Made by a program: the position numbers and the translations under genes
Notes under the pieces: generated by a model
What the model was told of the DNA's origin: nothing
Seen by the model: only the letters and a program-made list of their open reading frames with translations
Databases searched by the model: none
Shown here: positions 32,173 to 58,606 of the stretch, one piece after another
Position numbering within the stretch: position 1 is the stretch's first letter
Layout: every line of letters starts with the position of its first letter
DNA from: Edaphobacter lichenicola
GTDB taxonomy: Bacteria > Acidobacteriota > Terriglobia > Terriglobales > Acidobacteriaceae
DNA length: 64,000 bases
NCBI RefSeq assembly: GCF_025264645.1
Contig: NZ_CP073696.1
Span: forward strand, 992,001 to 1,056,000
Direction of reading: 5' to 3'

Positions 32173-33210
32173 TTATTGTTGACTCTGGCGATAGTTCAGC
32201 GAACAGACACACCTTTGGCAGGTTGCGTTGGTTGTAACATCCAGCGATTGGCGAAACTCCCGAGCCGCGATTCCATTGACAACCTCCTCCAGTGTTGAAG
32301 CAGTTATGTTACCTATGGAGCGGTGGAAGAAACATGGCCGCACGGAGCCGTCGATCTCAACAACAGCGGAGACCCAGGGAGCATTGCAGGCCGGAGCTTC
32401 CGGATGAATTTGTCCCAAGTGTTGGCGGAAGTGCCGTGGGATTCTCCTTAGTTTTGCAGGCGATTCGACTATGAATTTGGATCGGATGTCGGTTTCGTAT
32501 CTCTGGATGAGTAGTTCGATTTCAATTTCAAGAGCGGTCGTTTCGTCGTTAGTTAGACCTATCTGACTCTGCTTTTCGCCAGGCCATAGGAGAGGCCGAT
32601 TGAAGGCCTCTGATGTGAGATCGGCGGCCAAAAAAGAGACAGAGTCCAGTCCTAGCTCCTTTACCGCATCGACTGTCACGAGCAAATGACGATGGTTGGC
32701 CTTCTGTACAGTAGTGCGGCAGGTCATCGGCAGTGACGGGTTGTGACTGCGGACGGCAGTCACTCCTCTTCGGATAAGATCGTAGGCTCCCTTGATGCGA
32801 CGGATACCATTGTGAATCTCCTCCGGTCCATCGATAGAGGCAATGACATCGTCGAAGAGTGCGGCCACCTCCTCGGCACGCTTTAGAAGTAGCAGGCCCG
32901 TGGTCAGGAGGGTCAGGTGAATCTTCTGCTCGCGAAGAAAGTTACAAAGTGCTGCGAGATCGTTGTGCAACAGAGGCTCACCACCGGTGAGAACGACATG
33001 CCTGACTCCAAGCTTCTGCATGGAGTCGCGATGCCGCTCGAGATCCTCTGCTCGAATCTGCTCCTTCTTCTCGCGCTTCCAGATATCGCACATAACACAG
33101 CGGCAGTTACACAGGCTATGGGCATTCAGGATGAGAATTGGCAATGACGCGATAGTAGACGCAGGCCTTATCAGCGAGGACGCCGCGGCTGTTTCATGCA
33201 GAACCGGCAT
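32173..33210 (-). CDS. Radical SAM/SPASM-type protein, last gene of the operon
   Basis: A 345-residue radical SAM enzyme. ATG 33210 follows GAGGGTGG; the in-frame TTG at 33231 is less likely. The [4Fe-4S] motif C-x3-C-x2-C lies in C-N-C-R-C-V-M-C at about residue 35, with T-G-G-E-P-L-L as the SAM-binding GGE motif. The C-terminus has a SPASM-like auxiliary cluster region: C-N-A-P-W, then G-S-V-R-P-C-F-F, and the ending C-Q-R-C-V-C. It resembles PqqE/AlbA-like peptide-modifying or MoaA-like enzymes; the substrate is not known. It overlaps the preceding fusion gene by 17 bases, so translation is coupled. Confidence 0.85.
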   Translation of the reverse strand: MPVLHETAAASSLIRPASTIASLPILILNAHSLCNCRCVMCDIWKREKKEQIRAEDLERHRDSMQKLGVRHVVLTGGEPLLHNDLAALCNFLREQKIHLTLLTTGLLLLKRAEEVAALFDDVIASIDGPEEIHNGIRRIKGAYDLIRRGVTAVRSHNPSLPMTCRTTVQKANHRHLLVTVDAVKELGLDSVSFLAADLTSEAFNRPLLWPGEKQSQIGLTNDETTALEIEIELLIQRYETDIRSKFIVESPAKLRRIPRHFRQHLGQIHPEAPACNAPWVSAVVEIDGSVRPCFFHRSIGNITASTLEEVVNGIAAREFRQSLDVTTNATCQRCVCSLNYRQSQQ

Positions 33211-35146
33211 GATCCACCCTCTTTCCCCCAAGACGGAGATCTCTGCCTATCGATTTTCTGGCCCGAGCCAGTAGATCCTCGACTGGAGCACGGAGCCATC
33301 GCTCGTGGCCCTCAATGACGAGTGGCTGTAGCCCTGCCTTCAGCGAATCCGGAAGACGTGCATAGATAGGCGCACTTGCGAGTTGGACTCGTCCACCCAG
33401 AATGACCAGTTCGACCTGATCGAAGGTGAGGTGAGCGATGGTTTGAGCGGGAGTCAGACCTTTGTCGTGAACGGCAATGAGATCCGCTATTGCACCTGGC
33501 CTAAGGTGCCCTTCTCCATTGCGGAGACGCAATACACTTGCCGATCGTGCAGTGACCATTTCATACAAGGAGTCCACATCGACACCAATCTCGTTACGTG
33601 CGAACTTGATCTCATCGAGAAGGTCGCCTGCCGAAGTAATTGGAGAGTCGCTGCCTAGAACAACTGAGTTGAGCGTCTTAATTAAAGTGGAAGAAGGTGC
33701 GCTATTGAAGAGAAATTGATTCGACGTCGGACAGATCACGAGGGTGGAGCGACGCTGATTGAGCAGAGCCATAGCTTTTCTGTTCAATGCGAGTCCATGT
33801 ACGAGTATTGTGCGGTCATCAAGGACCTGCATGCGGTCCAAATCGAAGATCTCCTGCGCACTCTTTGCATCAACACCCTCCGCGGCATGCAGAATGAAAG
33901 GGAGATTCGGTGGCGTGTGATCGTAGTTGTGCAGAAGATCCGGATCCATTGCAAGCGAGTGTGCCCAGCCAAACCGCGAGAGTACGCGGACAGGAAAGTC
34001 ATTCGCAAGTAGCTCCCGTGTGAGCGGGTTATGATGACAGACGGTGGTTACGCCGGATATTAGATTGCGGATCGCTCCCCACCACAGGCGAACAGGCTTC
34101 GGCACCTTGCGATGACGTGCGATGACCGCCGCGCAGGTTCGGTGAATCTCTTTCGCCCACTCCATAGAGTTTTGATAAGGTCCGGCGCCCAAGTTGGGGA
34201 AGAGACCGAACTCAAGATGATCGTGCGCATTGATGAGACCGGGTAACAGGAGATAGCCGGGTAGATCAATGCTGTCGATCGAGGATGATAAGGTTTCTAT
34301 CTGCCGGCCAGGTCTGCTTGAGATAGAACGAATGTGGCCGCGCTCGATTACGATGGCTGCAACGGTAGAAGCTTCTGAACCGAGCGCGTAGCTGGCTCCC
34401 GCAAGACAAAGTGGCTCGGGCTTCTCGGTCTGATTTTGAGAGCGGGGAACTACCGTTACTTTCTTTCGTAGTTGGAGGATGTAAATGGCAGGAAGATCTA
34501 TGAAGGCCTCGTAAGATTCGACCTTTCCGTTCTGATCGAAGATCTTCTTTTCCTGCGACTCGAAGTGCGGCTCGATGAGCGTTAGTAACTCGAATCCCCA
34601 GGCTTGAAAAGTCCCAATGATCTCTTGGATGGAGTGACAGTTGGCAGGTATCTGCTCTTCTGTGGCATTCACCCTGAATGACCTCTTCCAATTACAGGAG
34701 ATAGCAGTGTCGGGGTGCATATCACTTAGAAATACGTTAGAACCTGGACGAGTAACTCGGTGAAGTTCGCGCGCGAACGTATCTAGATTCTCAAGATAGC
34801 TAAGAACAAAAGAGGCCATGACTAGATCGACAGTGGCATCCTGGACTGGCAAAGCGGTACAACTGCCGAGACGTAGAGATGCTGCCGGACCAAGCTTGGT
34901 TGCAGCACGGTGCAGCATCTGTGCGGAGGCATCTACGCCTTTTAGACTCCTGGGGGGATGAGATGCCAGAAGCTGGAGCCACCGACCAGTGCCGCAACCA
35001 ACATCGAGCACGTCGAGGCCACCAATGTCCGGGAGCATTTGGCTGAGAAAGCGTTGCTCCAGCAGCAGCAGCGGATTCGGCTGCTCGTCATAGACCTGCG
35101 CCCATGTATCGAAGGCTTCTGAAGGAGAGACCGCAGCCGCTGTCAT
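33194..35146 (-). CDS. Methyltransferase-amidohydrolase fusion protein
   Basis: A 650-residue fusion. Residues 1-230 are a class I SAM methyltransferase (V-L-D-V-G-C-G-T-G, then A-T-V-D-L-V-M-A and a Gly-rich late loop). Residues of about 245-600 are an AtzA/TrzA-like amidohydrolase: L-L-P-G-L-I-N-A-H-D-H gives the metal H-x-H, followed by H-A-A-E-G, L-V-H-G-L-A-L and S-D-S-P-I-T-S-A-G-D. The His and Asp ligands expected for a mononuclear metal site appear present. Predicted actions: methyl transfer to a substrate and hydrolysis of an amide, amine or similar bond on the same pathway. I know of no named homologue with this fusion. Four-base overlap with the upstream radical SAM gene. Confidence 0.82.
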   Translation of the reverse strand: MTAAAVSPSEAFDTWAQVYDEQPNPLLLLEQRFLSQMLPDIGGLDVLDVGCGTGRWLQLLASHPPRSLKGVDASAQMLHRAATKLGPAASLRLGSCTALPVQDATVDLVMASFVLSYLENLDTFARELHRVTRPGSNVFLSDMHPDTAISCNWKRSFRVNATEEQIPANCHSIQEIIGTFQAWGFELLTLIEPHFESQEKKIFDQNGKVESYEAFIDLPAIYILQLRKKVTVVPRSQNQTEKPEPLCLAGASYALGSEASTVAAIVIERGHIRSISSRPGRQIETLSSSIDSIDLPGYLLLPGLINAHDHLEFGLFPNLGAGPYQNSMEWAKEIHRTCAAVIARHRKVPKPVRLWWGAIRNLISGVTTVCHHNPLTRELLANDFPVRVLSRFGWAHSLAMDPDLLHNYDHTPPNLPFILHAAEGVDAKSAQEIFDLDRMQVLDDRTILVHGLALNRKAMALLNQRRSTLVICPTSNQFLFNSAPSSTLIKTLNSVVLGSDSPITSAGDLLDEIKFARNEIGVDVDSLYEMVTARSASVLRLRNGEGHLRPGAIADLIAVHDKGLTPAQTIAHLTFDQVELVILGGRVQLASAPIYARLPDSLKAGLQPLVIEGHERWLRAPVEDLLARARKSIGRDLRLGGKRVDHAGSA

Positions 35147-36606
35147 AAACTTTCTCGCTTTGGTTTGCGGAGATTAATGAACTGATTGGCCCATTGAAGT
35201 TCGATTGGAAAGCGATAGATGCGCAAAACGTAACGCCAGGAACTCAAGGCTTTCAAGAGTGTGCGGCTCCATTTTGGAGCGCGGATGTCCTGAACTGTGG
35301 GCCAGCGTGATCCAACGACAATTTCGAAGTTGTCGATAAGATCTTTTGTCTTGCGCTTCAGCCAGGGAGCCTGGGTGTCAATGCGCAAGGTGAAGTCCAT
35401 CCATTGCTTGCTGGCCCATTCGGCTGGCGTGGACGGCCAAGCGATCTGGCCGTCGATATCGCCGTACATATTTCCTGGTTGAGGCACAGGCGTGTAGTGG
35501 TAGATGATGATCTCTGAGTCGGGATTGATCTTCTTCAGCTTGCGGATGAAAGCCAGGGTTTCGCGCGTGTCTCGTTCAGGATCGCCGGGATTTCCGATGA
35601 CGAAGGAGAACTCTGGGATGATGCCGAACTTCTTTGTTCGCTCCGCTATCGTTACAGTCTGATCTGTCGTGATGCCTTTCTTCATCTCCTTGAGAGCCCA
35701 GTCGGAGCCGGACTCCGCTCCGAAAAAGATCATGGTGCAACCGGCTCGCTTGAGGGCGGCGAAGGTTTCATCGGAGTACCGTGACATAACATCAACACGA
35801 GCTTCGCACCACCATCGAAGATTGAGGTGTTCGATACGTCTTGCTAACTCGAGAGCGTGATCCTCTCTGAGAAAGAAGTTCATATCGTAAAACTGAACGG
35901 AGTCGGCACCGTAGTTCGTCACGAGATGCGTAAGAATCGCAGCGGTACGTTCTGGCGACTCCATGCGCTCTTTATTCCCATAGGCTGCATGCACGCCGCA
36001 GAAGCTGCAGTTGAAAGGACAGCCGATGCTGGCATGGTGTACTGCGGTGCGCTTGCCGAAGAAAGACGGACGAAGATACTTCTCCACGGGGAGCTTGTGG
36101 AAGGGCGACCAGGGAAACTCGTCCGGCCCTTTCATTGGGCGTTCAGCGTTGTTCCTTGGTAGGCCAAAGATGTCTTTGTAGGAGAGGCCTAGGATCGACT
36201 CAAAGGTGCGCTTTCCGCGCACCGCGTCGAGGAGCTCGAGAAAGGTATCTTCCCCTTGCCCGCGAACGATGTAGTCGACATATTTTGCATTCAGCGCCGC
36301 GTCGGGATAGACAGAAGGGAAGTAACCTCCCCACACAATCCTGACGTGTGGATGAACACGACGAATCTCGCGTGATGTCTCCATCGCTGCGACCATCTGC
36401 GGGCCTGGCATTACGGAGACGCCGAGCAACTCGACATCGTGTTGTTCGATGAGTCGAACAATAGTGGCGGTAGAGTCGTCATCAACATTACCGTCAACGA
36501 TCTCGTAGTCTTCACGACCTTCAAGCACTGCCGCGATAGCCAGTATAGCGAGGGGGAGACGGCGGTTGCGTGGTCTCGTAGCACGCGGATTATAGAGAAG
36601 GATCAT
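35143..36606 (-). CDS. B12-binding radical SAM protein (type A)
   Basis: A 487-residue cobalamin-type radical SAM protein. Residues 1-140 form the Rossmann-like B12-binding domain (V-S-V-M-P-G-P-Q-M, then G-G-Y-F-P-S). Residues of about 185-400 hold the radical SAM barrel with C-P-F-N-C-S-F-C for the iron-sulfur cluster and G-A-E-S-G-S. The C-terminus carries the motif Y-R-F-P-I-E-L, shared with the two largest proteins of this operon. Such enzymes often methylate or rearrange unactivated carbons. Substrate unknown. Its stop overlaps the next gene by four bases. Confidence 0.87.
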   Translation of the reverse strand: MILLYNPRATRPRNRRLPLAILAIAAVLEGREDYEIVDGNVDDDSTATIVRLIEQHDVELLGVSVMPGPQMVAAMETSREIRRVHPHVRIVWGGYFPSVYPDAALNAKYVDYIVRGQGEDTFLELLDAVRGKRTFESILGLSYKDIFGLPRNNAERPMKGPDEFPWSPFHKLPVEKYLRPSFFGKRTAVHHASIGCPFNCSFCGVHAAYGNKERMESPERTAAILTHLVTNYGADSVQFYDMNFFLREDHALELARRIEHLNLRWWCEARVDVMSRYSDETFAALKRAGCTMIFFGAESGSDWALKEMKKGITTDQTVTIAERTKKFGIIPEFSFVIGNPGDPERDTRETLAFIRKLKKINPDSEIIIYHYTPVPQPGNMYGDIDGQIAWPSTPAEWASKQWMDFTLRIDTQAPWLKRKTKDLIDNFEIVVGSRWPTVQDIRAPKWSRTLLKALSSWRYVLRIYRFPIELQWANQFINLRKPKRESL

Positions 36607-37601
36607 TTTCGGACCTTGGCAGTGTAGATTCGGAATCGGGATGGCTCGCGTTTTCCGCGTAACTTTGCAAGCAGCGGACGCATTGACCAGCGAACTCCGT
36701 AGTTAGGAGTGTGCGTCTGCCAGCGGATGCCCAGGCATGCCTCTGTTCGCTGCAGTCGCTGATCCGTAAGGTATTCGAGACTTTTGAGTCCGTCAGATGG
36801 AAAGCCGTATCGCTCGGTGAAAGCCAGACGACGTTCAGCGACCATCTGCTCGCCGCTCTCCTCGTTGCTGTACCAGGGCGTATCAGCAATAAGAACCGTT
36901 CCACCAGCGCAGGTGCAGCGCAGGGCCTCCGCGATGGTCTTTTCATAGTTTTCGGAGTAGTGGAATGAAGCGTTGTAGATGACCAGATCAAATTCATCGT
37001 CGGTAAAGGGGAGCGTGTCCAGCTCTGCTTGAAAACGCGGGAAGAGCGTTGGAAGATGCTTCCTGTAGTGTGCCGCCGCGCCAAGGCCATCGCGATCGTT
37101 CGTTAGCAGATCCACCGCCACGGGCGAGTGACCATCAAGTGCAAGGCGATAGCTCATCCAGCCATTACCTGCACCGAGATCCAGAATCTTCAAAGGCCTT
37201 TTCAAGCCAGGAAGGAGGCTGGGCAGAATATTTCGTTTGATATGGAGAAATGTCTTGGCTCGTATTACCCACTGCTGACTATTGCTATCCGATAAGTCCC
37301 GATACGGTAGGTTGAAATAGTATTCTGCATCCGTGCTACCGCGGTTTTCGGCTGAACGTATGAATTGATAGTCCCTGATAAAGCGCGAGAAGTGATCAGC
37401 GCGCTCGGGTAGTAGCGATCTCCAGATGCCTTGTTCGCACTCTAACTTCAAACAGCAGTCTGAGCAGACAAATGTTGTATTGGCAGGGTTCGTCTTCGGA
37501 AGATGGCCGATCCACCCACTACAGCGTGGGCATTGCAGCCGTAAACCTTTGCGTTCAACAGTGGTAGCGGCTGCAGCTTCTGAATGACTTGTCATAATCA
37601 T
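36603..37601 (-). CDS. SAM-dependent methyltransferase with zinc-ribbon N-terminus
   Basis: A 332-residue protein. Residues 20-60 form a Cys4 zinc ribbon (C24-x2-C27 and C46-x2-C49). Residues of about 130-260 hold a class I methyltransferase domain: L-D-L-G-A-G-N-G-W (motif I), F-D-L-V-I-Y-N-A (motif IV region). The C-terminal 70 residues are basic. Similar proteins methylate small molecules or lipid/sugar intermediates in biosynthetic clusters. It overlaps both neighbours by four bases, so it is translated with the radical SAM genes. Confidence 0.83.
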   Translation of the reverse strand: MIMTSHSEAAAATTVERKGLRLQCPRCSGWIGHLPKTNPANTTFVCSDCCLKLECEQGIWRSLLPERADHFSRFIRDYQFIRSAENRGSTDAEYYFNLPYRDLSDSNSQQWVIRAKTFLHIKRNILPSLLPGLKRPLKILDLGAGNGWMSYRLALDGHSPVAVDLLTNDRDGLGAAAHYRKHLPTLFPRFQAELDTLPFTDDEFDLVIYNASFHYSENYEKTIAEALRCTCAGGTVLIADTPWYSNEESGEQMVAERRLAFTERYGFPSDGLKSLEYLTDQRLQRTEACLGIRWQTHTPNYGVRWSMRPLLAKLRGKREPSRFRIYTAKVRK

Positions 37602-38416
37602 GCCTGCACTCTCTCAAAATGAAGGAGCATATGATCGCCAAGTACACGAAACAACGGACGAGTTGCTACGATTGCGTCAACTGCACGCAAAAAACCTAAG
37701 AGTCTGGGATGCTTACAAATCCAACTTTCAACATATGACGGCGGGACAGTAACGCCGATGCCCGTGACTGAGTGAAGTGTGAAGAAAGGAGAGAATAACT
37801 TTCGAAGCTGCCGCACAGTTGGATAATAGACATCCACGGTAAACTGGCCGACAGTAGCGGTAGCGTGGCCAAAGCATCTCCGAAATGCTCTGCGGAACTC
37901 TCCATGAAGAAGAAACCAGACTATCTCGGAGATGCAGAAACGTGTTGAAAGACAAATTAAGAGTGGAGCACCTGCAGGTAACAAATTCGCAAGGTCTTCG
38001 GCTGTCTGTCTTAGATTAACAACACAGTTCAAGCCCGAGAAGTTTGAGAAAGCCCCGTCAAACATAGTTGGACGCTCAATCTCACTGAGGCGCTCCGTCG
38101 GCAGCAGGCTGAACTGGACACTCGTATCCAGGCGTTCCACAGAGAGACGTTGGCCGGCAACTTGAATCATCCGCTCCGAGGCGTCACAGGCAAAAACAGA
38201 GATGCCATTGCGCGCAAGGAAGAGAGCATCTTCGCCAGTCCCGCAGTTGAGCTCAAGGACGTGGTCACCACTCTGGAAGATTTGTGTGAGTACATTCCAT
38301 ACAACAGTTCGCTGAGCGCGTCCTATCAGCGATTTCGTAAAAAGGTCATCATAACCTTCAGCTAGTTGATCAAATGCCTGGATAGCTTGCGGCTGAGCTG
38401 TTGCGGCATGGCTCAT
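37598..38416 (-). CDS. SAM-dependent methyltransferase
   Basis: A 272-residue class I methyltransferase. Motif I is V-L-E-L-N-C-G-T-G, preceded by Y-D-D-L-F. Motif II region is F-A-C-D-A-S. The middle motif is F-D-G-A-F-S-N-F. The C-terminal half (about 170-272) is hydrophobic and rich in aromatic residues, which may suit a lipophilic substrate. Overlaps the neighbouring genes by four bases on each side. Confidence 0.82.
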   Translation of the reverse strand: MSHAATAQPQAIQAFDQLAEGYDDLFTKSLIGRAQRTVVWNVLTQIFQSGDHVLELNCGTGEDALFLARNGISVFACDASERMIQVAGQRLSVERLDTSVQFSLLPTERLSEIERPTMFDGAFSNFSGLNCVVNLRQTAEDLANLLPAGAPLLICLSTRFCISEIVWFLLHGEFRRAFRRCFGHATATVGQFTVDVYYPTVRQLRKLFSPFFTLHSVTGIGVTVPPSYVESWICKHPRLLGFLRAVDAIVATRPLFRVLGDHMLLHFERVQA

Positions 38417-39810
38417 GCTTCTACCTCCATGCGGGTGGAGTGCAGGCCTGAACGAGCGAGCTGGATCTCCCGACGCAGGCTGGCTGCGGCGTCGGATTCA
38501 GCCGCTGGAGTGCCGGCCATGCGAGCCAGCTGGACCTCATCCTTCAGGAGTTTGTCTGCGTAGCTATAAAACTTTTGCGAGTGCCGTCCTTTGATCTTGA
38601 TCTCCCGGTCGGAACTTGTTCCCCATGGCTTAAGCTGTACAAGTCGATCGGAGATTTTCTTGTAGTAAGGTGTGCCTTTGATAGGATAAGAGACCGTGGT
38701 GAAGAAGATGTCAGGCTTCGAGATGCTGACGTGCTTGATCGTTGCCTCGATATCGTCCAACTCTTCGCCTTCGTAGCCCCACATGAGGAACATTCCACTC
38801 TCGATTCCTCGTTCGCGGCTCATTGCGACTGCCTGTTGTACCTGCTCGATCTTGACACCACGATCCATCGAGTCCAGGATGCGCTGGGAACCGCTTTCTG
38901 AGCCAATCCAGATACGGAAGCAGCCAAGCTCGGCAAGGAGATCGAGCATCTCTGCGTTGAGCCGATCGGCACGTGAGATGCACTCGAAGGGAATGCGCAG
39001 ACCGCGTCGGCGCATCTCTGCCGCGTAGTCACGAAGCCATTTGTGGTTAATCGTGAAGACGTCATCAGAGACCCAAACCATATCAGGCGTGTAGGTTTGA
39101 AGCAGCCACTCCACTTCGTCTACAACGAGCAGCGGATCACGACGACGATGTGTCTGACCAAAGACTTGATGGCTGCACCAGCGGCATTTGTAGGGACATC
39201 CCCGGGCGGTGATGAAGTTCACGGAACCTTTGCCGTGTGCATCGCGCCAGGTTTTGACATAACGTCCGACGTCAATGGCATTACGTGCAGGCCACGGTTG
39301 ACTATCGAGATCCGCAATCTGGCTGCGCGGCTCTGTTTCATGCATGTTCCCGGCTGAGTCGAGGTATGCGAGCCCCGAAATACTGGCAAAGGAACTTACA
39401 TCACCAGCGCGAAAGGCTTCGAGCAACTCCTGCATGGTGAGTTCACCTTCGCCGAAGACCACGTAATGCGCTCCTGCCTGCAGATATTCCAATGCGTATG
39501 CGCCCGGTTCCGGGCCACCAACAATAGTCTTCCAGCCTGCTTCTCGCGCTACTTTGAGTGTCTCCACGACATTGCTCCGCGTCATAAGATTTGCGTAGAT
39601 GCCAAGGACAGACGGCGTCTCAGTGCGGAGATGTGTGAAGAGTGCTTCACGGCTGGAAAAGGTAGTGTCGAATACATCGACATCGAAGCCCTGTTTCCGA
39701 AGATGAGAGCACAGGTACAGGATGCCAAGAGGGGCATAAGGCTTCAGAATCTGAAGCTCCTTCGGATCCTCGTAGAGAAAGTAGCCGTGGGTGAGGAGGA
39801 GTTCGGCCAT
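38413..39810 (-). CDS. B12-binding radical SAM protein (type B)
   Basis: A 465-residue protein. The N-terminal B12-binding-like domain opens L-L-T-H-G-Y-F and contains Y-A-P-L-G-I-L-Y. The radical SAM barrel has G-C-P-Y-K-C-R-W-C (cluster Cys) and I-G-S-E-S-G-S. Its N-terminal half is clearly similar to that of the gene immediately upstream (L-I-T-H-S-Y ... P-P-L-G-T-L-Y), so the two are likely duplicates. The upstream gene's TAG is directly followed by this gene's ATG. Substrate unknown. Confidence 0.86.
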   Translation of the reverse strand: MAELLLTHGYFLYEDPKELQILKPYAPLGILYLCSHLRKQGFDVDVFDTTFSSREALFTHLRTETPSVLGIYANLMTRSNVVETLKVAREAGWKTIVGGPEPGAYALEYLQAGAHYVVFGEGELTMQELLEAFRAGDVSSFASISGLAYLDSAGNMHETEPRSQIADLDSQPWPARNAIDVGRYVKTWRDAHGKGSVNFITARGCPYKCRWCSHQVFGQTHRRRDPLLVVDEVEWLLQTYTPDMVWVSDDVFTINHKWLRDYAAEMRRRGLRIPFECISRADRLNAEMLDLLAELGCFRIWIGSESGSQRILDSMDRGVKIEQVQQAVAMSRERGIESGMFLMWGYEGEELDDIEATIKHVSISKPDIFFTTVSYPIKGTPYYKKISDRLVQLKPWGTSSDREIKIKGRHSQKFYSYADKLLKDEVQLARMAGTPAAESDAAASLRREIQLARSGLHSTRMEVEA

Positions 39811-41313
39811 CTAGATCTGCCTCGCTGCTGAAGTCAAACTCTGGAGGGGAACAAACTTTTCGTCGTTACGGTCTTCTTTCGTTTCATCGAAGGAGATTAT
39901 GGTCGCTTCGGGGATTCTAGTTATCGGTTCGAGGTCGTATACCTGTTGCCATAGAGATGCTAGATCAGCGTTCTGGTAGGACGGATCACTGTTCTTCCAT
40001 GAGTCGACTTCTGCATGGAGTGCGTTTCTTAGTGCTCGGTAAAATTCGTCTTGATAGGCCGCAGAAAACATGACGCAGAGATCATCGCTGTCGGTCCAAT
40101 TCCGTTTTGCGCCAATCTGGGCCTGAACTCGCTCGTAAAAAATGGTCCCCGGGAGTGGATACGAGAACGAGATGCCAATATCATCCGGTCGTGTACTCCG
40201 GACGAGTTCGATGGTGTGCTGTATATCCTCCCACGTCTCTCCGGGATAGCCGAACTGTAGAAAGTAACATGCGCGGATGCTCTTCTCAGAGAGACGAGCC
40301 CGCGCAGCGATAACGTCGGAAACACGCAGTCCCTTGTCCATCGCGTTCAGCACTTTTTGAGAACCAGATTCGACGCCCATCCAAATCTCCGCGCATCCCG
40401 CCCGTTTCAGGTTTGCCACGGTCGTTTGGGTCATAAGATCTGCGCGAGACTGGACTTTGAACGGCAAACTGCACCGCATCGACTCAATCTCATCCGCAAA
40501 CTCTTGTACCCAGTGATGATTCAGCGCGAAGACATCGTCTCCAAACCAGATGTGCTGCACACCGTACATCTCTTTCAACTCGCGTATCTCAGCTGCGACA
40601 ACGTGTGCGGGACGGATCTGGAACTTATCTCCGGAGATCGGCTTGGCACACCAGTTACAGCGATAGGGACATCCACGACTGGCCACAACGTTGGTGGAAA
40701 AATGCCCATGTGCTGCGCTCCACGCCTGGCGGTACGGTTCAAGATCGATGAGTTCGCGAGAGGGCCTTGGAAGTGCGTTCCATGATGCGTTCTTTGGCGC
40801 CTTACCCTGACTCTGCACGGAGTCTCCTGCAGGGTCGAGATACACAAGACCTGGGATGCCTGAATATGGACGATAAGAAAGAAGCGCGGAACAAAGCTCG
40901 ACCAGCGTCTGTTCGGCCTCTCCCAGTAGAACAAAGTCGACTCCATTGCGCAGATAGAGTTGAGCTTGATCGGTTGCGTCGGAGCCATGTGCAATAACGA
41001 TTGCCCCGGCTTTCTGCGCCTCGCGCGCAAGTTGCCAGGCGAGCTCTCGCATTCGAGTCAGACACATCTTTGAGAGAAAGTTGAAGTCATCTTCGTAGAT
41101 GACCACCAGGCGAGGCTGTTGCTGTTCGAGTGCCGCCGCAAAGCCGACGTCAGGATTTTCGAGCATTGTGTCGAAGACGGCGACGGAGATGTTCCCAGCT
41201 TTTAAAGCGGAGGCTGCGTAGAGCGTACCTAACGGCGGATACGGCTGCATTTTACGTACCTGCTTGGGGTCGTAGGGGAGATGGTAGGAATGGGTGATCA
41301 GTACATCCGCCAC
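39811..41313 (-). CDS. B12-binding radical SAM protein (type B)
   Basis: A 500-residue paralogue of the next gene downstream. B12-binding-like N-terminus (L-I-T-H-S-Y-H-L-P-Y-D-P, P-P-L-G-T-L). Cluster motif G-C-P-Y-R-C-N-W-C and V-E-S-G-S in the barrel. C-terminal region with Y-P-L-P-G-T-I-F typical of BchE/hopanoid-type radical SAM relatives. ATG 41313 lies 24 bases after the stop of the preceding gene (41338), the largest gap inside the operon; AAGAGAAGGAGG is present there as a ribosome site. Substrate unknown. Confidence 0.86.
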   Translation of the reverse strand: MADVLITHSYHLPYDPKQVRKMQPYPPLGTLYAASALKAGNISVAVFDTMLENPDVGFAAALEQQQPRLVVIYEDDFNFLSKMCLTRMRELAWQLAREAQKAGAIVIAHGSDATDQAQLYLRNGVDFVLLGEAEQTLVELCSALLSYRPYSGIPGLVYLDPAGDSVQSQGKAPKNASWNALPRPSRELIDLEPYRQAWSAAHGHFSTNVVASRGCPYRCNWCAKPISGDKFQIRPAHVVAAEIRELKEMYGVQHIWFGDDVFALNHHWVQEFADEIESMRCSLPFKVQSRADLMTQTTVANLKRAGCAEIWMGVESGSQKVLNAMDKGLRVSDVIAARARLSEKSIRACYFLQFGYPGETWEDIQHTIELVRSTRPDDIGISFSYPLPGTIFYERVQAQIGAKRNWTDSDDLCVMFSAAYQDEFYRALRNALHAEVDSWKNSDPSYQNADLASLWQQVYDLEPITRIPEATIISFDETKEDRNDEKFVPLQSLTSAARQI

Positions 41314-41337
41314 AGATTACCTCCTTCTCTTGTTGGG

Positions 41338-42840
41338 CTAGCAGGCACTGGCAGGCTCCTTTGGAAGTTCCTGGCCCGTTACCAGTGAACGACGAAGCAC
41401 AATTCGCTCGGAGAGATTTGAGAGCCAAAGCTCCCATGGAAACGCATAGTGGCTGGAGCGAAGGCGCCAGCGAATCGGGGTTTGCACAATAAAACGTACG
41501 GCGTGCCGGAGCCTCGAGTAGTTGTTTTGCTTTCGGTCAATCTGACTATTCAGCAGAAAATACTTGAGCATTCGTTGCAGTCGTGAAAGCTCTTTTCCCT
41601 TGAGCCACGGCAGCATATTTGCGCCTAGAGGCATATCCATCCACTCACGAAGGTTCTTCGGCTCGGGGACGCCCAACTCCCGGAGTTGCGGCCAGATTGG
41701 TATGCCCGGATAGGGTGTGAAGATATTTGGTGAAAAGCTGACGTTGGGGAACTTATGGCCGATGTCGCTCATCGTCTGGAAGGTAATGATGCGATCAGCC
41801 TCTGTCTCACCCGGGTATCCAAAGATCAGGTTGAATGTGACACGGATGCCGCCAATCTGTGCCTTGCGCGCCGTCTCATACATCTCGTCAACTCGCTGGT
41901 GACGTTTGTTCATCAGCTTCAAAACCGATTCAGACGTAGATTCAGTGCCGAAGCCCATGTGCGATACGCCGCTTGCGCCAAGCAGGCGTACCTCGTCTTC
42001 GCTCATACGGCAAAGGAAGTCGGTGGAGGCTTGAAAAGTCCATTTGAACTTCACGCCAGAGTCAATGATTCCGCGTGCAATCTCGAGCGCGCGTGGGAGC
42101 TGAACTGGGAAGTTCGAGTCAAGTAATGCAACCTCATCGATGCGATAGCGGGTGACGAGGTCGAGCATCTCAGCGACAGTACGGTCCGCAGACAGCGCAT
42201 TGAATCTTCGCTTGTAGAAGACCATGTCCGTGCAATAGTTGCATGCGTAGGGGCAACCAACGCTGGTTGCATAGGCGAGCTTTCGCATGCCGGAGAGCTT
42301 TTCGTACGCGTCGAAGTTGGTGAGATCAAATGCGGGAAGGGGAAGGGAGTCCAGTGGCTCCACCTTGCGGTCCACATTGTGAGTTCGCTGCCCGTTTTTT
42401 TTCCACGAGAGCCCGGCTATGCCGCCAAGCGGCTTTTTCTGCGCCAGCGCTTGAGCAACTTCAACGATCGTAATTTCGCCCTGGCCGCGGACAACCATGT
42501 CAACAAAGCTTTCACTGAGAGTCTCATCGGGTAGAAGCGTGGGGTGCCATCCACCAAAGATGATTGGGAGCCACGGTGTCTGGCTCTTTACCGCTGTCGC
42601 TACCTCGATGGCGCCCCCGATCATAGGCCCCGTCAGCACGGAGATTCCGACACACAGCGCATCTACGCTTTCGCACTCTATTCGTGTCAGGTAATCGGGC
42701 TCAATCGCAGCGTCGATCATGACTACGTCGAAGCGGGCTTCGCGCAGAGAGGCCGCAAGAGCGAGCAGGCAAAGCGGCGCCCCTAGTGGAGGGCCATCGT
42801 AAGCCGGATAAAAAAGTACAACCTTGCCTTGGCTCAGCAT
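41338..42840 (-). CDS. B12-binding radical SAM protein (type A)
   Basis: A 500-residue protein. B12-binding domain with G-I-S-V-L-T-G-P-M-I and G-G-W-H-P-T-L-L-P. Radical SAM cluster motif G-C-P-Y-A-C-N-Y-C; F-G-T-E-S-T-S in the SAM-binding region; F-G-Y-P-G-E-T and F-T-P-Y-P-G in the barrel end. C-terminal motif Y-A-F-P-W-E-L-W-L matches the other type A proteins. Overlaps the upstream gene by seven bases. Closest relative in the window is the gene at 42834-44369. Confidence 0.87.
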   Translation of the reverse strand: MLSQGKVVLFYPAYDGPPLGAPLCLLALAASLREARFDVVMIDAAIEPDYLTRIECESVDALCVGISVLTGPMIGGAIEVATAVKSQTPWLPIIFGGWHPTLLPDETLSESFVDMVVRGQGEITIVEVAQALAQKKPLGGIAGLSWKKNGQRTHNVDRKVEPLDSLPLPAFDLTNFDAYEKLSGMRKLAYATSVGCPYACNYCTDMVFYKRRFNALSADRTVAEMLDLVTRYRIDEVALLDSNFPVQLPRALEIARGIIDSGVKFKWTFQASTDFLCRMSEDEVRLLGASGVSHMGFGTESTSESVLKLMNKRHQRVDEMYETARKAQIGGIRVTFNLIFGYPGETEADRIITFQTMSDIGHKFPNVSFSPNIFTPYPGIPIWPQLRELGVPEPKNLREWMDMPLGANMLPWLKGKELSRLQRMLKYFLLNSQIDRKQNNYSRLRHAVRFIVQTPIRWRLRSSHYAFPWELWLSNLSERIVLRRSLVTGQELPKEPASAC

Positions 42841-44369
42841 GCGGCCTCAACTGGCTCAGGGTTGGGCTCCAGGCGACGTGCGTCTACGACAGGCTTGAAG
42901 CCGGCAGTCCTTTCCTTGAGCTTGTCATTGAGCCAAAGTTCCACTGGAAAGCGATACAGACTATGATCAAGCCGGAAACGAGCGGGAAACGAGATACACT
43001 TTTGTGCCAGACGGGTAATACGGGTGCGCCGGTCTACCCCTATCGGAATGCGATCGAAAGCGATACGCAGGTAGTCGCGCATAATTTGTAACTCTTCATG
43101 ATCGCGTCCGTTCAGCCACGGCAGCTTCGTGTAACGTGGAAAAAACTCGGCCCACTTTTCGAGAGAGTCAGGAGCTTCGATGCCAAGCTCATCTGCCCGG
43201 TTCATAACATTCGTGCCCGGGTACGGAGTGAAGATATTGGTCCAGAATTCGGTGCCCGGAAAGCGCCGGCAGACATCCATGATGAAGTTCATGGTCTCCC
43301 TTCGCTCTTTTTGGCCTTCTCCTGGATAAGCAAAGATAATGTTGAAGGACGGGCGCATGCCTGCTGCCAGGCAGCGTGCCGCACTTTCGTAGATGTCCTC
43401 AAAGTTCTGAAAGGTCTTGTTCATTGCCTTCAGAATCTTCGGAGATCCTGAATCCACGCCCTGACAGATCTGATGTAGGCCGCTGCGGCGCAAGAGCTTC
43501 AGATCTTCAAGAGAGAGTCGTGAGGTCAGATTTGTAGTTGCCTGAATGCTCCACTGAAACTCTGCCCCGGCGCGGACTAGGCCCTCGCCGATTGCGCGGG
43601 CGCGGTCCAGATCGACAAGAAAATTGTCATCCACAATCCAGAGCATATTGAGGTTGTAGCGGCGACTGAGATCGACAGTCTCCTCCACAAACTGCTCCGC
43701 TGGCAGCGCGTTCCACTTACGTTTGTAGACCGCTCCATTGGTGCAGTAGGCGCAATCGAATGGGCAAGCCAGGCTAGAGGTGTACATCGCCCAGCGTCTG
43801 CCGCACATGCGCTCATACGCATCAAAGTCTGCGATGTGGTAGGCCTTCGGAAGTTGGTCAACGATGGGTTTGAGAGTGCGTTCTGGAGTGAACGTGAGCT
43901 TGTTATCTCGTTTAAATCCGATGCCGGCTACAAAGTCAGGCGCGGAACGATTCTCAATATGGCCTACCAGTTCGAGAAAAGAATCTTCGCCCTGCCCACA
44001 AACGACATAATCGATGTAAGGTGCCTGTAAAGTCTGCGTGGGAAGAAGCGATGGGTGCCATCCGCCAAGCACGATAGGAAAGTCGGCATTCCAGGCTTTG
44101 ATGGCTTTAGCAATTTCTACAGTCTCTCGAATCATTGGCCCAGTTACCAACGAGATTCCGAGACAGATTGCATCACGCACCTCTTCGAGCACACGCTTCT
44201 TGTAGTTCGGAGTGATGGTTGAATCGATCAAGACCACCTGGTAGCCAGCACGGATCAAGGGCGTAGCGACAGCCAGAATGCCCAGAGGGGCCGTTGCGTC
44301 GGAGCTTGCAAAGGACGGAAAGAAGAAGACAATTTTGCGGGACTTGGGCAATGCGATCTCCTCGCTCAT
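42834..44369 (-). CDS. B12-binding radical SAM protein (type A), first gene of the operon
   Basis: A 511-residue protein. B12-binding domain with G-I-S-L-V-T-G-P-M-I and G-G-W-H-P-S-L-L-P, near-identical to its neighbour. Cluster motif A-C-P-F-D-C-A-Y-C, V-D-S-G-S-P, and F-A-Y-P-G-E-G / F-T-P-Y-P-G-T. C-terminal Y-R-F-P-V-E-L-W-L. It is the first gene of a nine-gene minus-strand unit reaching 32173. No clear ribosome site precedes ATG 44369. It is divergent from the HprK-related kinase with 123 bases between starts. Confidence 0.87.
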   Translation of the reverse strand: MSEEIALPKSRKIVFFFPSFASSDATAPLGILAVATPLIRAGYQVVLIDSTITPNYKKRVLEEVRDAICLGISLVTGPMIRETVEIAKAIKAWNADFPIVLGGWHPSLLPTQTLQAPYIDYVVCGQGEDSFLELVGHIENRSAPDFVAGIGFKRDNKLTFTPERTLKPIVDQLPKAYHIADFDAYERMCGRRWAMYTSSLACPFDCAYCTNGAVYKRKWNALPAEQFVEETVDLSRRYNLNMLWIVDDNFLVDLDRARAIGEGLVRAGAEFQWSIQATTNLTSRLSLEDLKLLRRSGLHQICQGVDSGSPKILKAMNKTFQNFEDIYESAARCLAAGMRPSFNIIFAYPGEGQKERRETMNFIMDVCRRFPGTEFWTNIFTPYPGTNVMNRADELGIEAPDSLEKWAEFFPRYTKLPWLNGRDHEELQIMRDYLRIAFDRIPIGVDRRTRITRLAQKCISFPARFRLDHSLYRFPVELWLNDKLKERTAGFKPVVDARRLEPNPEPVEAAC

Positions 44370-44492
44370 TGTGGACGATATGACTTGTAGTGACCGTAGT
44401 TGTCATGTCCATGTCAGTGATTTGTAAAGTTTTTTGTAGGCAACGAAATTGCCGCTTTCATTGGGTTAGAGTGAAGCCCAACAGGTATTCCG
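44370..44492. promoter_or_regulatory. Shared divergent promoter region
   Basis: The 123-base space between the radical SAM operon (minus) and the kinase gene (plus) must hold at least two promoters. It is more AT-rich than its surroundings (TTTGTAAAGTTTTTTGTAGG) and contains a small hairpin GGCAA-CGAAA-TTGCC and a repeated ATGTC. I could not assign -35/-10 boxes with confidence. Confidence 0.4.
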
Positions 44493-45473
44493 ATGTCATC
44501 AGTTTCGATCGATCGAACCGTTCTTCCCTATAGCAGGGAGCTGTGCTTCGCTGGCGCACTTTGCACACTGCGCACCAATTCGTGCGATCTAGCCGACGTG
44601 CTCGAACTTTTATCCATTTCTGTAAATGAATTTGCTTCGACCCGATTCGATATGCGAATTGTCGTTGATGAGTCTTCGCCTCAAGCTGCCGAGCGGCCTC
44701 ATTTTCGGGGATTGCATCACGTCGTTACGGCGAGCTTCGGGAGTTCGAACATCTTTATCTTTGATGTTTTGCGCCGGAAACTCAGCGCAAGTGTCTCAGG
44801 CGTTGTTGCGCGGGACTATCAGTTCTGGAAGGAAAAGCTGATCCCGATTACCCTCGGCATTCTTGGCGCAGCTATCGGCCTGGTTCCGATGCACTGTGCG
44901 TGTCTTGAGTCTGACGGCGATGGCTTACTGATCGCAGGAGCGTCGGGCGCAGGTAAATCTACGCTTTCTGTGGCACTTTCACAGGGTGGCTTCAACTACG
45001 TCTCCGACGACTGGACTTATCTGTCACAGCGGAATGAAAAGCTCGTTGCTCACGGCACATCCGCACCGGTGAAACTGCTACCTGATGCAATCAACCACTT
45101 TCGAACCTTGCAGGATTTTAGTCTGCAGACATCAATGAATGGCGAACTGGCATACGAGGTCAATATTGCGGAAACCTTTGGCGCTCGAACAGAGCTTGGG
45201 TGCGAGCCGCGCTGGTTAGTTTTTCTGGAGAGGGCGTCTCGCCCTGGTGGTAATTTCACTCCGATGTCGTCTGCGGCGGCGCGAACCTACCTCTATTCTA
45301 GTGTGGAAAGACTACCTGTTCAGTTGTCCGAAGCAGCGGCGAAGCGGGAACAGATCATCGAAAAAGTTTCACAGCTGCCGTCCTGGCGCTTTAGTTACGG
45401 GGGCACCCCAAAGTTCGGCACAGAGCAGCTTCGCGAGTTTATTGCGCTTCGCAGGCGTGAGGTTTACGCATGA
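44493..45473 (+). CDS. HprK-related P-loop kinase
   Basis: A 326-residue protein. Residues 149-157 are a Walker A loop (G-A-S-G-A-G-K-S-T), followed by V-S-D-D-W at 170-174, the pair of acidic residues characteristic of HPr kinase-like enzymes. Residues 1-120 form an N-terminal alpha/beta domain without HPr kinase sensor features. The length and layout fit the HprK-related kinases found near exopolysaccharide and some peptide-natural-product clusters; in a lasso-peptide pathway a related kinase phosphorylates the peptide product. The true substrate here is unknown. Stop overlaps the next gene by four bases. Confidence 0.8.
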   Translation: MSSVSIDRTVLPYSRELCFAGALCTLRTNSCDLADVLELLSISVNEFASTRFDMRIVVDESSPQAAERPHFRGLHHVVTASFGSSNIFIFDVLRRKLSASVSGVVARDYQFWKEKLIPITLGILGAAIGLVPMHCACLESDGDGLLIAGASGAGKSTLSVALSQGGFNYVSDDWTYLSQRNEKLVAHGTSAPVKLLPDAINHFRTLQDFSLQTSMNGELAYEVNIAETFGARTELGCEPRWLVFLERASRPGGNFTPMSSAAARTYLYSSVERLPVQLSEAAAKREQIIEKVSQLPSWRFSYGGTPKFGTEQLREFIALRRREVYA

Positions 45474-46923: not shown

Positions 46924-48162
46924 ATGAATCGTCAGTTATCGCAAGCCGTGATTGCTACTTTCCGTGAAGCGGATCCAGAGAGCCATTTTCGTCGCCTGTC
47001 AGGATTCCGCTATCGATCTTGGGTCGGAATATACGGTTGGCTCGATGCCAGCGGCTTAGCTCTTTATTTTCTTGCACGAGTTCGGGCACTGGGTATTGAA
47101 GCTGCGCTTCCGGTGCGGGTGTTACAGCGACTCGAAGGAAATACGGCCGATAATGAGAAAAAGATGGCCAGCATGTTTCAGGAGTTTATGACGCTGAACC
47201 AAGATTTTCAGCATGCTGGTCTGCTTTATGCCAATCTCAAGGGTTTTACATTAACCCCTGATTCTTGTGCGGATATAGCTCTGCGCTGTCAGCTCGATCT
47301 CGACTTCCTTATGTCTTCGAATGATGCTCAGCGCTGCGAGAGTATCTTGGCGGCGCGAGGTTATTCACTAGTCGGTACAGACGCGGGCAGTAAAGAATTT
47401 AAAGCAGATAGCGAACAATTGCCATCAGTGCGGGATCTTTACAGGGCAAAGCCTCAGCGCAGCGTAGAAGTTCATTTCGTCGATGGTGATGGAGGCGGCT
47501 CCCGGAAGAACGAACTCTCTCGCCTACGATCAAAAAAATGGAGGGATTTAGAGCTCCCGGTTCTCTCAGAACTTGACAAGTTTCTTGGACATGCGCAGCA
47601 CTTATTCAAGCATCTAAAAAGCGAATGGACTCGCGCTTCATGGATTCTTGAATATTCAAATTTCATCAGCTTCCATCGGGAAAACCATGCACTATGGCTT
47701 GAAGTACAGGAACACCTGACGCGGAACCCAAAAATCAAAATTGCAGTCGGAGCAGTGACTCTATTTACCAAACAGAGTTTTGGCTTCAACTCAATACCCA
47801 AAACGCTGATGGCATCGGTTCGAGAACTTCCTGCACCGGTGCGGCTGTGGGTTGAGCGATATGGAAACGATGTGCTTATGGCCGAATATCCCGGAACCAA
47901 GCTCTATTTTTTGCTGTTGAGGGCTCTGTCTCTTGATGAAACTGAGCCTCTCTCAAAGAATAGCAACAAAGTTTTTCCTGTACATCATCCCCCGAGAATT
48001 ACTGTAGCGAGCGAAAAAGCAAATCTTATAGTGCAGCTGAATCAACATTGGCAGCAGATACGTTTTTTTTGTTTCCGGCTGAAATTTCACCTTCGCCAAG
48101 GGTTGGTTTTCATAATAGAAGAATCCCGTTGGAAGAAAAGTATTGCTTTATTGCAGATGTAG
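46924..48162 (+). CDS. Nucleotidyltransferase-family protein (NTP_transf_5-like)
   Basis: A 412-residue protein with an AAGGAG ribosome site before ATG 46924. It resembles the uncharacterised nucleotidyltransferase family (PF14907-like): L-K-G at about residue 106, then Q-L-D-L-D-F-L-M with the two metal-binding Asp, and a later V-E-V-H-F. The C-terminal half is helical and basic. Members are often found with HprK-related kinases in exopolysaccharide or peptide clusters. Predicted to transfer a nucleotidyl group to an unknown acceptor. Gap of 36 bases after the cytochrome gene. Confidence 0.75.
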   Translation: MNRQLSQAVIATFREADPESHFRRLSGFRYRSWVGIYGWLDASGLALYFLARVRALGIEAALPVRVLQRLEGNTADNEKKMASMFQEFMTLNQDFQHAGLLYANLKGFTLTPDSCADIALRCQLDLDFLMSSNDAQRCESILAARGYSLVGTDAGSKEFKADSEQLPSVRDLYRAKPQRSVEVHFVDGDGGGSRKNELSRLRSKKWRDLELPVLSELDKFLGHAQHLFKHLKSEWTRASWILEYSNFISFHRENHALWLEVQEHLTRNPKIKIAVGAVTLFTKQSFGFNSIPKTLMASVRELPAPVRLWVERYGNDVLMAEYPGTKLYFLLLRALSLDETEPLSKNSNKVFPVHHPPRITVASEKANLIVQLNQHWQQIRFFCFRLKFHLRQGLVFIIEESRWKKSIALLQM

Positions 48163-56434: not shown

Positions 56435-56467
56435 ATTATCCCGAGGTGGGAAATTGGTCATTTTTCT

Positions 56468-58606
56468 ATGTTTTTATCTGTAACTAAATATTCAAGATCT
56501 TTCGGAAAGCCAATCTTTCTGGCTGCGGGAGCACCACTTCCCGAGTGGGTTCGCCGTGCGGAGTGGTTGTTGTTTGCATTAATGCTCTGGTATTTCGTCC
56601 TTCATACGTTGCCGACCGCCTGGATAACTTTGAACACTGATTTTCCAAACTACTACTTGACAGCACGTATTGCCCGAGAAAAAGATGACACATCCCGTAT
56701 TTATGAGTGGGTATGGCTTCAACGACAGAAAGACTATCGCCAGATCGATCAGCGCATTATAGGATTAGTCCCAATTACGCCGTTCTCGACTCTCGCTGTC
56801 TGGCCTTTAGCTTCGTTTCTTCCGCTGACGGCCAAGCACTACTGGCTAAGCCTCAACATCGTAATGGTCGGGGCGATTGCTGTCCTACTGCGATTACTAA
56901 CTCGACTGTATTGGAGGCACATTGCTTTAGTAATAGCTCTGAGCGTACCTATTAACAAAAATTTTTTATATGGCCAATACTACGTATTACTACTGTTTAC
57001 AATAGCGTTAGCCTGCTGGTGCTATGTACGCCAAAAGCGGCTAGTTGCTGGAATTCTTATCGGTCTCGGCTTTGGGTTGAAGTTGTTTCCACTACTTTAT
57101 CTTGGATATTTTTTACGAAAGAAAGATTTCAAGGCTTTTATTGGCGGTGTTGTCGGTAGCTCTGCTGCGGCGATTGCTTCGATTACGATCTTCGGGATTC
57201 AAGCGAACCGGGTACTTTTGATTCAGGTATTACCTTGGGCTATGCGTGGTGAAGGGATGAATCCGTATGACATCTCAAGCGCATCGGTTGCTACCTTACT
57301 TCATCGGTTATTCGTTTATGAGCCGCAGTGGAATCCAAGTCCTCCGATACATGCTCCATGGATGTTCGCCATACTCCTTCCCCTTGTGCAAACTTTATTA
57401 TTCGCTCCGGCACTGCTATTGGTGAAACCGAATAGCATGGATGCTAGAAGACTGCATCTTGAATGGTCGGGCGTTTTGATTGGCAGTTTAGCGATCTCTA
57501 CTTTGCCGGCTGGCTACCACTTCACCCTTCTAATTCTCCCGGTATGTCTTATGTGGAGCTCAACTCGAGAGAGGGCCGGATGGATTGGAACTGCCGTTCT
57601 TTTGTTCTTGTTCGTAGCAATCGGGTATCCAGGCTGGAAAGCACTGGGATCTATTTCTCACTTAGTCTTGTTAAGTGTTCCGCGATTGTATGTTGTGCTT
57701 GCATTGTGCATTTTTAGTTATTGGCTACTGGCGGTGGAGGAGCGCGGTTCAAGATGGGATCGTGACGCCCTCTTGTGGACCGGTGCATTCGCGATGATGA
57801 TGCTCCTAAATATTGCACTGGGGTTGCGCCATCAGCATGGACTATACGCAGACTATGCGTGGCGCATTCCGATTGCTGACCAGGTGCTGCAGGCCGATAA
57901 TCCCATAGCGCAGAACAACACAGTGTTATTTACTGCAATGCTACCTGATGGATATCATGCAGCATCTCAGAGCAAAGACTTGGTTCATTTTGATAAGAGC
58001 CATAGCGACCAACTCGCATTAGCTGCGAACTCTTCCGAACGGTGGACAGAAGAGGTTAGCTCCGAATCGATGATTGTCCCCAGCCACTCCGATCAAAAGA
58101 TTATTCATCAAGCTGAATCTCCCGTGGCTTCGCCTGATGGCAGGTGGTTAGCGTTTCTCCGCGAGGAACATGGACGCAATCGCATCTGGCTCCGTGTTCT
58201 AGACCAACCCGGAAGCACCGATAGAGTCATCACATCGGCCGAGTTGAACGTATCGGAGATGTCATTCCTCCCGAATGGCTCGCTTATCTTTTCGGCCGAG
58301 CCAAACGGAGGGCGTCCCGGCCTGTTCCTCGTCGATCAGGCAGGATCCATCAGTTCGCTCGGTCCCGACGAGAGCCGCTACCCAGCCGTTTCTCCCGACG
58401 GCCACTGGTTGGCATACAGTCAGTTGCAAGGTGGCAATTGGCACCTGCAACTCCGCAATCTCCGTAACGGCCAGACCGAAACACTCACCCACGCTGACTG
58501 CAATAACGTGGAACCGGCGTGGCTACCTGATTCGAAGACATTGATCTACGGTAGCGACTGTGGACGGGCGCTTTGGTTTTACGCTCTTTGTCGCCGTCCT
58601 ATCTAA
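56468..58606 (+). CDS. GT87-like multi-pass transferase fused to PD40 repeats
   Basis: A 712-residue fusion. Residues 30-480 form about eleven membrane segments resembling the GT87/DUF2029 family of polyprenyl-sugar-dependent transferases: an early D-F-P-N-Y-Y after the first segment, then G-F-G-L-K-L-F-P in the middle. Residues of about 555-705 are TolB-like PD40 beta-propeller repeats (V-A-S-P-D-G-R-W-L-A-F; A-V-S-P-D-G-H-W-L-A-Y; L-P-D-S-K-T-L-I-Y). The propeller would lie outside the inner membrane. It may extend or polymerise the glycan; no separate polymerase gene was found here. Confidence 0.78.
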   Translation: MFLSVTKYSRSFGKPIFLAAGAPLPEWVRRAEWLLFALMLWYFVLHTLPTAWITLNTDFPNYYLTARIAREKDDTSRIYEWVWLQRQKDYRQIDQRIIGLVPITPFSTLAVWPLASFLPLTAKHYWLSLNIVMVGAIAVLLRLLTRLYWRHIALVIALSVPINKNFLYGQYYVLLLFTIALACWCYVRQKRLVAGILIGLGFGLKLFPLLYLGYFLRKKDFKAFIGGVVGSSAAAIASITIFGIQANRVLLIQVLPWAMRGEGMNPYDISSASVATLLHRLFVYEPQWNPSPPIHAPWMFAILLPLVQTLLFAPALLLVKPNSMDARRLHLEWSGVLIGSLAISTLPAGYHFTLLILPVCLMWSSTRERAGWIGTAVLLFLFVAIGYPGWKALGSISHLVLLSVPRLYVVLALCIFSYWLLAVEERGSRWDRDALLWTGAFAMMMLLNIALGLRHQHGLYADYAWRIPIADQVLQADNPIAQNNTVLFTAMLPDGYHAASQSKDLVHFDKSHSDQLALAANSSERWTEEVSSESMIVPSHSDQKIIHQAESPVASPDGRWLAFLREEHGRNRIWLRVLDQPGSTDRVITSAELNVSEMSFLPNGSLIFSAEPNGGRPGLFLVDQAGSISSLGPDESRYPAVSPDGHWLAYSQLQGGNWHLQLRNLRNGQTETLTHADCNNVEPAWLPDSKTLIYGSDCGRALWFYALCRRPI

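Follow-up and report, generated by a model that had tools for sequence, protein, structure and literature searches.

TsrM, TokK, CysS, OxsB and MgmA are among the described enzymes closest to the proteins considered here, with which they share the arrangement of a B12-binding-type domain in front of a radical SAM barrel with a CxxxCxxC motif. AprD4, a radical SAM diol dehydratase that acts on an aminoglycoside, is another close relative, and its B12-type domain is reported not to bind B12. Known B12-type radical SAM enzymes carry out difficult chemistry, for instance methylating unactivated carbon and phosphorus and contracting or forming rings (PMC13331322). For pseudoiodinine, GTP cyclohydrolase II and then a deaminase have been proposed as the first two steps, ahead of methylation (PMC9911603).

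A 64,000-nucleotide stretch of the Edaphobacter lichenicola genome (contig NZ_CP073696.1, positions 992,001 to 1,056,000; hereafter the window) was found to carry nine ORFs on the minus strand, from 44369 to 32173, among which five proteins of this B12-type kind stand together. We are highly confident that this operon represents one dedicated, co-inherited pathway. All nine frames proposed in the earlier note were open, with a largest gap of 24 bases, and they are as follows, in transcription order:

A, 42834..44369, minus strand: B12-binding/radical SAM protein of 511 aa, first gene of the operon (Pfam, GGWHPS, CxxxCxxC, tree)
B, 41338..42840, minus strand: B12-binding/radical SAM protein of 500 aa (Pfam)
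C, 39811..41313, minus strand: B12-binding-like/radical SAM protein of 500 aa, member of both modules described below (Pfam, motif)
D, 38413..39810, minus strand: B12-binding/radical SAM protein of 465 aa, nearest paralogue of C (Pfam, 33% identity)
E, 37598..38416, minus strand: SAM methyltransferase of 272 aa (Pfam Methyltransf_25)
F, 36603..37601, minus strand: SAM methyltransferase of 332 aa with an N-terminal CxxC...CxxC stretch (Pfam Methyltransf_11)
G, 35143..36606, minus strand: B12-binding/radical SAM protein of 487 aa (Pfam)
H, 33194..35146, minus strand: methyltransferase fused to an amidohydrolase, 650 aa (Pfam)
I, 32173..33210, minus strand: radical SAM/SPASM protein with an ATG start at 33210 (Pfam Radical_SAM 59.1 bits, SPASM 45.8 bits)

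A and B overlap by 7 bases, B and C are separated by 24 bases, C and D abut with a gap of 0, and the D/E, E/F, F/G and G/H pairs overlap by 4 bases each. The H/I overlap is 17 bases given the ATG start of I at 33210, which matches the ORF start in two relatives (L001 and L004); the longest ORF of I opens at a TTG at 33231. The tight packing claimed earlier (overlaps of 4–17 bases, gaps of 0 and 24) was confirmed by these coordinates, and the domain content that had been assigned to all nine genes is backed by Pfam, namely five proteins with B12-binding and Radical_SAM matches, one with a SPASM domain, the methyltransferases and the fusion. The 5.66-Mb genome holds 26 Radical_SAM matches (25 over the cut-off), six of which lie within the 12.2 kb of the operon, where approximately 0.06 would be expected. 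This crowding is not due to chance. The genome has six places where B12-binding and Radical_SAM matches coincide, and five of them are inside the operon.

Radical_SAM was matched over the cut-off in A, B, C, D and G (71.6 bits in A). The B12-binding domain scored 72.7 bits in G, 70.4 in B, 66.6 in A, 58.3 in D and 34.2 in C against a cut-off of 32.1, so that C is marginal. The CxxxCxxC motif was kept in all alignment rows of A (29/29), C (42/42) and G (34/34), in 20/21 rows of B, the exception being a distant protein of L095, and in 31/32 rows of D, the exception being a row that ends at a contig end. A also has a GGWHPS motif conserved across its alignment. The GG motif, a loop that we take to have a role in the B12-type domain, was present in A, B, D and G; C carries HGSD instead and conserves it. 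This replacement and the marginal Pfam score suggest that C may be a candidate for B12-free catalysis, as with AprD4, and the loss of the motif leaves the B12 dependence of all five proteins putative. A structure model of C (pLDDT 64.2) had TsrM, MgmA, AprD4 and OxsB as Foldseek neighbours, with TM-scores of about 0.3–0.4; at this pLDDT the model was too poor to argue from, and any use of it beyond the fold class was set aside. Three cobalamin riboswitches score over the cut-off in other parts of the genome, which also encodes a cobalamin adenosyltransferase away from the operon, and no Rfam match to a cobalamin riboswitch was obtained in 20000–64000.

B is 38% identical to A, and D 33% identical to C. 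None of the nine proteins reached a curated NCBIfam cut-off among the matches listed (the best 25 where there were more). Among the matches listed, BchE, ApyD and HpnJ were the models that the five B12-type proteins matched best, though only partially. The highest score to a named B12-radical SAM family was that of D to BchE (165.8 bits against a cut-off of 481.35), and among the matches listed all five scored below the cut-offs of HpnJ, BchE, ApyD, HpnR and other NCBIfam families of this type. In a tree of 105 B12-type proteins, sampled as proteins longer than 380 aa from 30 of 50 regions plus the window, C, D and G were each set apart by a single branch, two changes were required for each of A and B owing to three distant rows (L091, L092 and L095), and C grouped with D. 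The five proteins form five lineages, which recur jointly in other families of the phylum. The lineages were thus either distinct before the families separated or have travelled together since.

The N-terminal CxxC...CxxC cysteines of F are conserved in its alignment. Pfam placed a methyltransferase family in the N-part of H and Amidohydro_1 in the C-part, and the two halves are separate genes in other genomes. In the amidohydrolase, H308 and H310 were kept in 46/46 rows with a letter (one row has a gap), and H420, E423, H450 and D500 in 47/47. HxH, H, E three residues later, H and D presumably constitute the deaminase-type amidohydrolase pattern, and because these residues are invariant in all covering rows, the amidohydrolase of H is predicted to be active. 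It matched the NCBIfam models of purine and related deaminases partially and with similar scores. A structure model of H from six close sequences had a mean pLDDT of 35.2 and was not used. The closest solved structure to I by sequence was BlsE, with a match over residues 34–160 only. I scored 58.5 bits to ScmE of the SynChlorMet cassette, below the cut-off of 400. Matches to HprK-like models also stayed below their curated cut-offs (HprK_rel_B, 36 against 200; ScmC, 30.7 against 125).

To describe the occurrence of the operon, 150 genomes of the order were searched. H was found in 39, C in 41, covering all 39 with H, and G in 30, every one of them within the 41 with C. The distribution is patchy within the genus, where H occurs in 20 of 35 genomes. 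Forty regions were fetched from 38 other H-bearing genomes, two of which gave two regions each, and analyzed by tblastn. All genes from A to I were present in order in 10 regions; the order was kept without a B match in 8 and without F in 3, B had moved in 1, 1 region was cut by a contig end, 13 were of a short type lacking A, B, D and G, and 4 were other variants. Many flanking genes around the regions displayed were found in one region only, so the cluster sits in differing contexts. Among 396 genomes of the phylum, 26 gave a match to H at E 1e-30 and 34 gave a match to C at E 1e-95; 17 of these 34 are outside the family of the window. In the 15 regions retrieved around C from beyond that family, D accompanied C in 12, 10 of which also had E, and the three regions without D were on contigs of 7–11 kb, two of them ending within about 1 kb behind C.

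A contig scan with H, which detects close relatives only, returned five loci, all titled Acidobacteriaceae, Edaphobacter or Granulicella, and C had no match on viral contigs. Plasmid relatives of A, C, D and G were at most 30.6% identical among the matches listed. An orthologous cluster on plasmids was rejected, the nine contexts opened being other cassettes or unannotated. Of the 16 plasmid relatives of C found, 12 were listed and five of these were opened: three have glycosyltransferase and epimerase genes around them, one adjoins another radical SAM gene, and one is on an unannotated record. Plasmids of Streptomyces, Calothrix and Nocardia have a cassette in common (L145, 6781–12462; L146, 6877–12369; L147, 7057–12392) that consists of genes for a radical SAM protein, a B12-type radical SAM protein, a tRNA-ligase-like protein, an LD-carboxypeptidase and an SDR.

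The gene order is therefore conserved across genera and, in part, across families, which is the support that the earlier note had asked for. Homologues recur together in sets rather than solely as single genes in unrelated contexts, and no description of a matching characterised cluster was found in the open-licence papers searched. With no curated family reached among the matches listed, these results support the earlier proposal of an unidentified, dedicated pathway. Since the related sets recur across the phylum as an inherited unit, the operon very likely builds one molecule.

What is new here is that the pathway consists of two modules, which are joined in this lineage. Module 1 comprises C, F and the amidohydrolase; module 2 comprises A, B, D, E, G and the H-type methyltransferase; the two are apart in some genomes. 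C was present and G absent in 11 genomes: at E 1e-90 they gave no match to G, and at E 1e-60 the search with C returned no further match of the D type. These 11 regions hold C, F and the amidohydrolase without the methyltransferase half, and all 11 also carry an E-like methyltransferase, a PF14907-type nucleotidyltransferase, an HprK-like gene and a macrolide-type glycosyltransferase. In two genomes (G083 and G136), module 1 is located apart from a second module, which has A, D, E, G and the H-type methyltransferase. The fused H thus joins parts that are found separately elsewhere.

GTP cyclohydrolase II gave some match in 146 of the 150 genomes, and its 15 best-scoring places were all in cluster regions. 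When two types were split post hoc on scores (at least 284.9 against at most 279.2 bits), the cluster type was found in 10/11 genomes with C and without G, in 5/30 with G and in 0/109 without C, counts on which Fisher tests ignore kinship; it thus stands beside the cluster in 15 of 41 C-bearing genomes. In the 10 genomes without G it is a second GTP cyclohydrolase II, so module 1 on its own usually comes with an enzyme of this kind. The cluster-type enzyme aligns end to end with that of E. coli and retains its cysteines, tyrosine and arginine, which we take to be catalytic. The cluster of the window itself has no GTP cyclohydrolase II, and 25 of the 30 G-bearing genomes are also without the cluster type. 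Of the two copies in this genome, one is some 0.5 Mb distant and the other lies some 1.3 kb beyond the start of the window; they are approximately 56% and 30% identical to the cluster type.

Three neighbouring genes on the other strand may belong to the pathway:

HprK-like kinase, 44493..45473, plus strand: divergent from the operon; HprK_rel_A 42.5 bits against a cut-off of 200; probable accessory gene
PF14907 nucleotidyltransferase, 46924..48162, plus strand: 91 bits; probable accessory gene
GT87 glycosyltransferase with PD40 repeats, 56468..58606, plus strand: Pfam, far end of the polysaccharide cluster; possible accessory gene

In a comparison biased toward the cluster side, as the probes were chosen from the window and the cluster regions themselves, HprK-like genes were found in 26 of 65 cluster regions and 0 of 20 controls, PF14907 genes in 22/65 and 0/20, and GT87 matches in 19/65 and 1/20; polysaccharide export/assembly genes (14/65 vs 1/20) did not differ significantly (p 0.11). 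Other probe groups were MGT (11/65 vs 1/20), PhyH (11/65 vs 0/20), GT2/GT4 (8/65 vs 1/20) and PIG-L/epimerase/FkbM (3/65 vs 1/20). The cluster regions are of unequal lengths and exclude L073–L075, three near-duplicates, as well as L104; the 20 controls include 19 from the family of the window. In L072 the PF14907 gene is embedded in the gene array itself, and tblastn places it there in L101 as well.

Cupredoxin-like and cytochrome c-like proteins are also encoded divergently from the operon, as are the 133-aa protein and the polysaccharide-type set described below. A scan of 44300–44600 found no promoter. A plus-strand ORF in the divergent gap (44390–44533) is 44–50% identical in five regions, two of which are second copies of the same loci; its overlap with the hprK start makes conserved regulatory DNA likelier than a peptide. 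A gene for a 133-aa protein (45470–45871) overlaps the HprK-like gene, reaches no Pfam or NCBIfam family at the cut-offs, and has homologues in five regions of close relatives (44–47% identical). The idea that it is a stray HprK N-domain was dropped, as BLASTP gave no similarity to the HprK-like protein. A polysaccharide-type set at 48319–58606 encodes a UpxY-family antiterminator, an SLBB/Wza-like export protein, a chain-length protein, GT2, WecG-type and sugar-phosphate transferases, and the GT87 protein with PD40. Further away in the window, 24748–26421 encodes a protein in which a weak glycosyltransferase-like N-part precedes a TylF-type O-methyltransferase domain; a GT2/TPR-type gene comes next. 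A repetitive 1988-aa ORF (3643–9609) lies within a stretch of high GC skew.

In the pathway that we propose, the radical enzymes and methyltransferases would decorate a small scaffold. This scaffold would be a ring of the nucleobase type. A pyrimidine made by opening GTP is the likeliest, and the GTP cyclohydrolase II for this step would here come from a gene elsewhere in the genome. The amidohydrolase would take an amino group off the ring, and C would contribute radical chemistry for which B12 may not be needed. Methylating or rearranging carbons with B12 and SAM would fall to A, B, D and G; E, F and the methyltransferase of H would place methyl groups on N or O, and I would add one further radical step. 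Finally, neighbouring enzymes could phosphorylate, nucleotidylate or glycosylate the product for the cell surface; because glycan genes lie close to several copies, the product may be something other than a classical natural product that is secreted. The nucleobase-type ring was taken as a first guess because the cluster-bound GTP cyclohydrolase II and the deaminase-type amidohydrolase travel with C, and it is put forward tentatively. The same degree of caution applies to the whole chain from scaffold to surface product.

A sugar substrate is almost as likely as the nucleobase scaffold, although somewhat unlikely in its own right. The operon would then make an unusual (e.g., C-methylated or deoxygenated) sugar or a lipid-linked glycan for a surface polysaccharide, such as the neighbouring one, whose gene set starts 4 kb from the operon. 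Flippase, epimerase, PIG-L and GT4 genes adjoin copies in other families, C scored 98.8 bits to TIGR04295 (cut-off 400), and AprD4, with its aminoglycoside substrate, is among the nearest structures. The location of three plasmid relatives of C among glycosyltransferases and epimerases points the same way, but these relatives are only about 28% identical. Moreover, the enrichment of polysaccharide export/assembly genes was not significant, and a sugar gives no clear role to GTP cyclohydrolase II and the deaminase-type amidohydrolase. A rather unlikely alternative for the amidohydrolase alone is that it takes no pathway step and clears by-products, deaminating 5'-deoxyadenosine or S-adenosylhomocysteine that the radical enzymes and methyltransferases release. 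Its residue pattern, its fusion to a methyltransferase and the company of six radical SAM enzymes are consistent with this role, as are partial matches to the models of 5'-deoxyadenosine deaminase (39.9 bits, cut-off 522) and TRZ/ATZ hydrolase (55.7 bits, cut-off 540). However, other deaminase models score alike, and the amidohydrolase stays with C, F and GTP cyclohydrolase II where G is absent and radical enzymes are fewer.

The modification of a membrane lipid (hopanoid, iso-diabolic acid or branched tetraether) is considered improbable. Edaphobacter aggregans produces branched tetraethers at low oxygen (PMC10087280), HpnJ was the best partial model match of C and G among the matches listed, and C and D scored about 112 bits to the ladderane-type lipid model TIGR04072 (cut-off 360). 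Nevertheless, no lipid model among the matches listed reached its cut-off, and the operon-bearing KBS 89 is among the genomes reported without hpnP and hpnR (PMC5462960). The absence of H from 15 of 35 genomes of the genus would be odd for a core lipid, and GTP cyclohydrolase II and the amidohydrolase do not fit a lipid. Modification of a ribosomal peptide or protein is less probable still. The SPASM domain of the radical SAM protein I speaks for it, as do partial matches to RiPP models and the fact that HprK-like and PF14907 proteins also occur in lasso-peptide clusters. However, no RiPP model cut-off was reached among the matches listed, and no conserved precursor peptide gene was found in the gaps of 27000–49000, where only the ORF at 44390–44533, of 27 small ORFs (18–120 codons), was conserved over most of its length.

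Under the nucleobase reading, the operon might represent a new natural-product class, in which a GTP-derived pyrimidine is processed by five B12-type enzymes, three methyltransferases and a deaminating amidohydrolase before phosphorylation, nucleotidylation or glycosylation prepares it for the surface. The pathway would then be an old, modular one of the Acidobacteriota; this full picture is rather unlikely. That five enzymes separated for so long have stayed together implies an elaborate product, and they would be five new enzymes of the B12 radical SAM kind. Under the two-module layout, strains with module 1 and without G are expected to yield a simpler product.

Compared with the pseudoiodinine and toxoflavin pathways, in which GTP cyclohydrolase II and a deaminase are proposed to feed a methylated ring product, the cluster of the window lacks a GTP cyclohydrolase II of its own; the available part of that account (PMC9911603) mentions no radical SAM enzyme and does not show its deaminase to be an amidohydrolase. 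I differs from the cytosylglucuronate decarboxylase BlsE in its score of 53.2 bits against a cut-off of 400. AprD4 is near A and D by sequence and near C by fold, but A, B, D and G reached at most 69.4 bits and C 92.2 bits against the AprD4 cut-off of 500. For A and D, sequence comparison gave TsrM, TokK, CysS, OxsB and MgmA as the nearest chains, as fold comparison did for the C model (pLDDT 64). These enzymes are matched only partially, with no curated cut-off reached among the matches listed, whereas the operon brings together five paralogous lineages.
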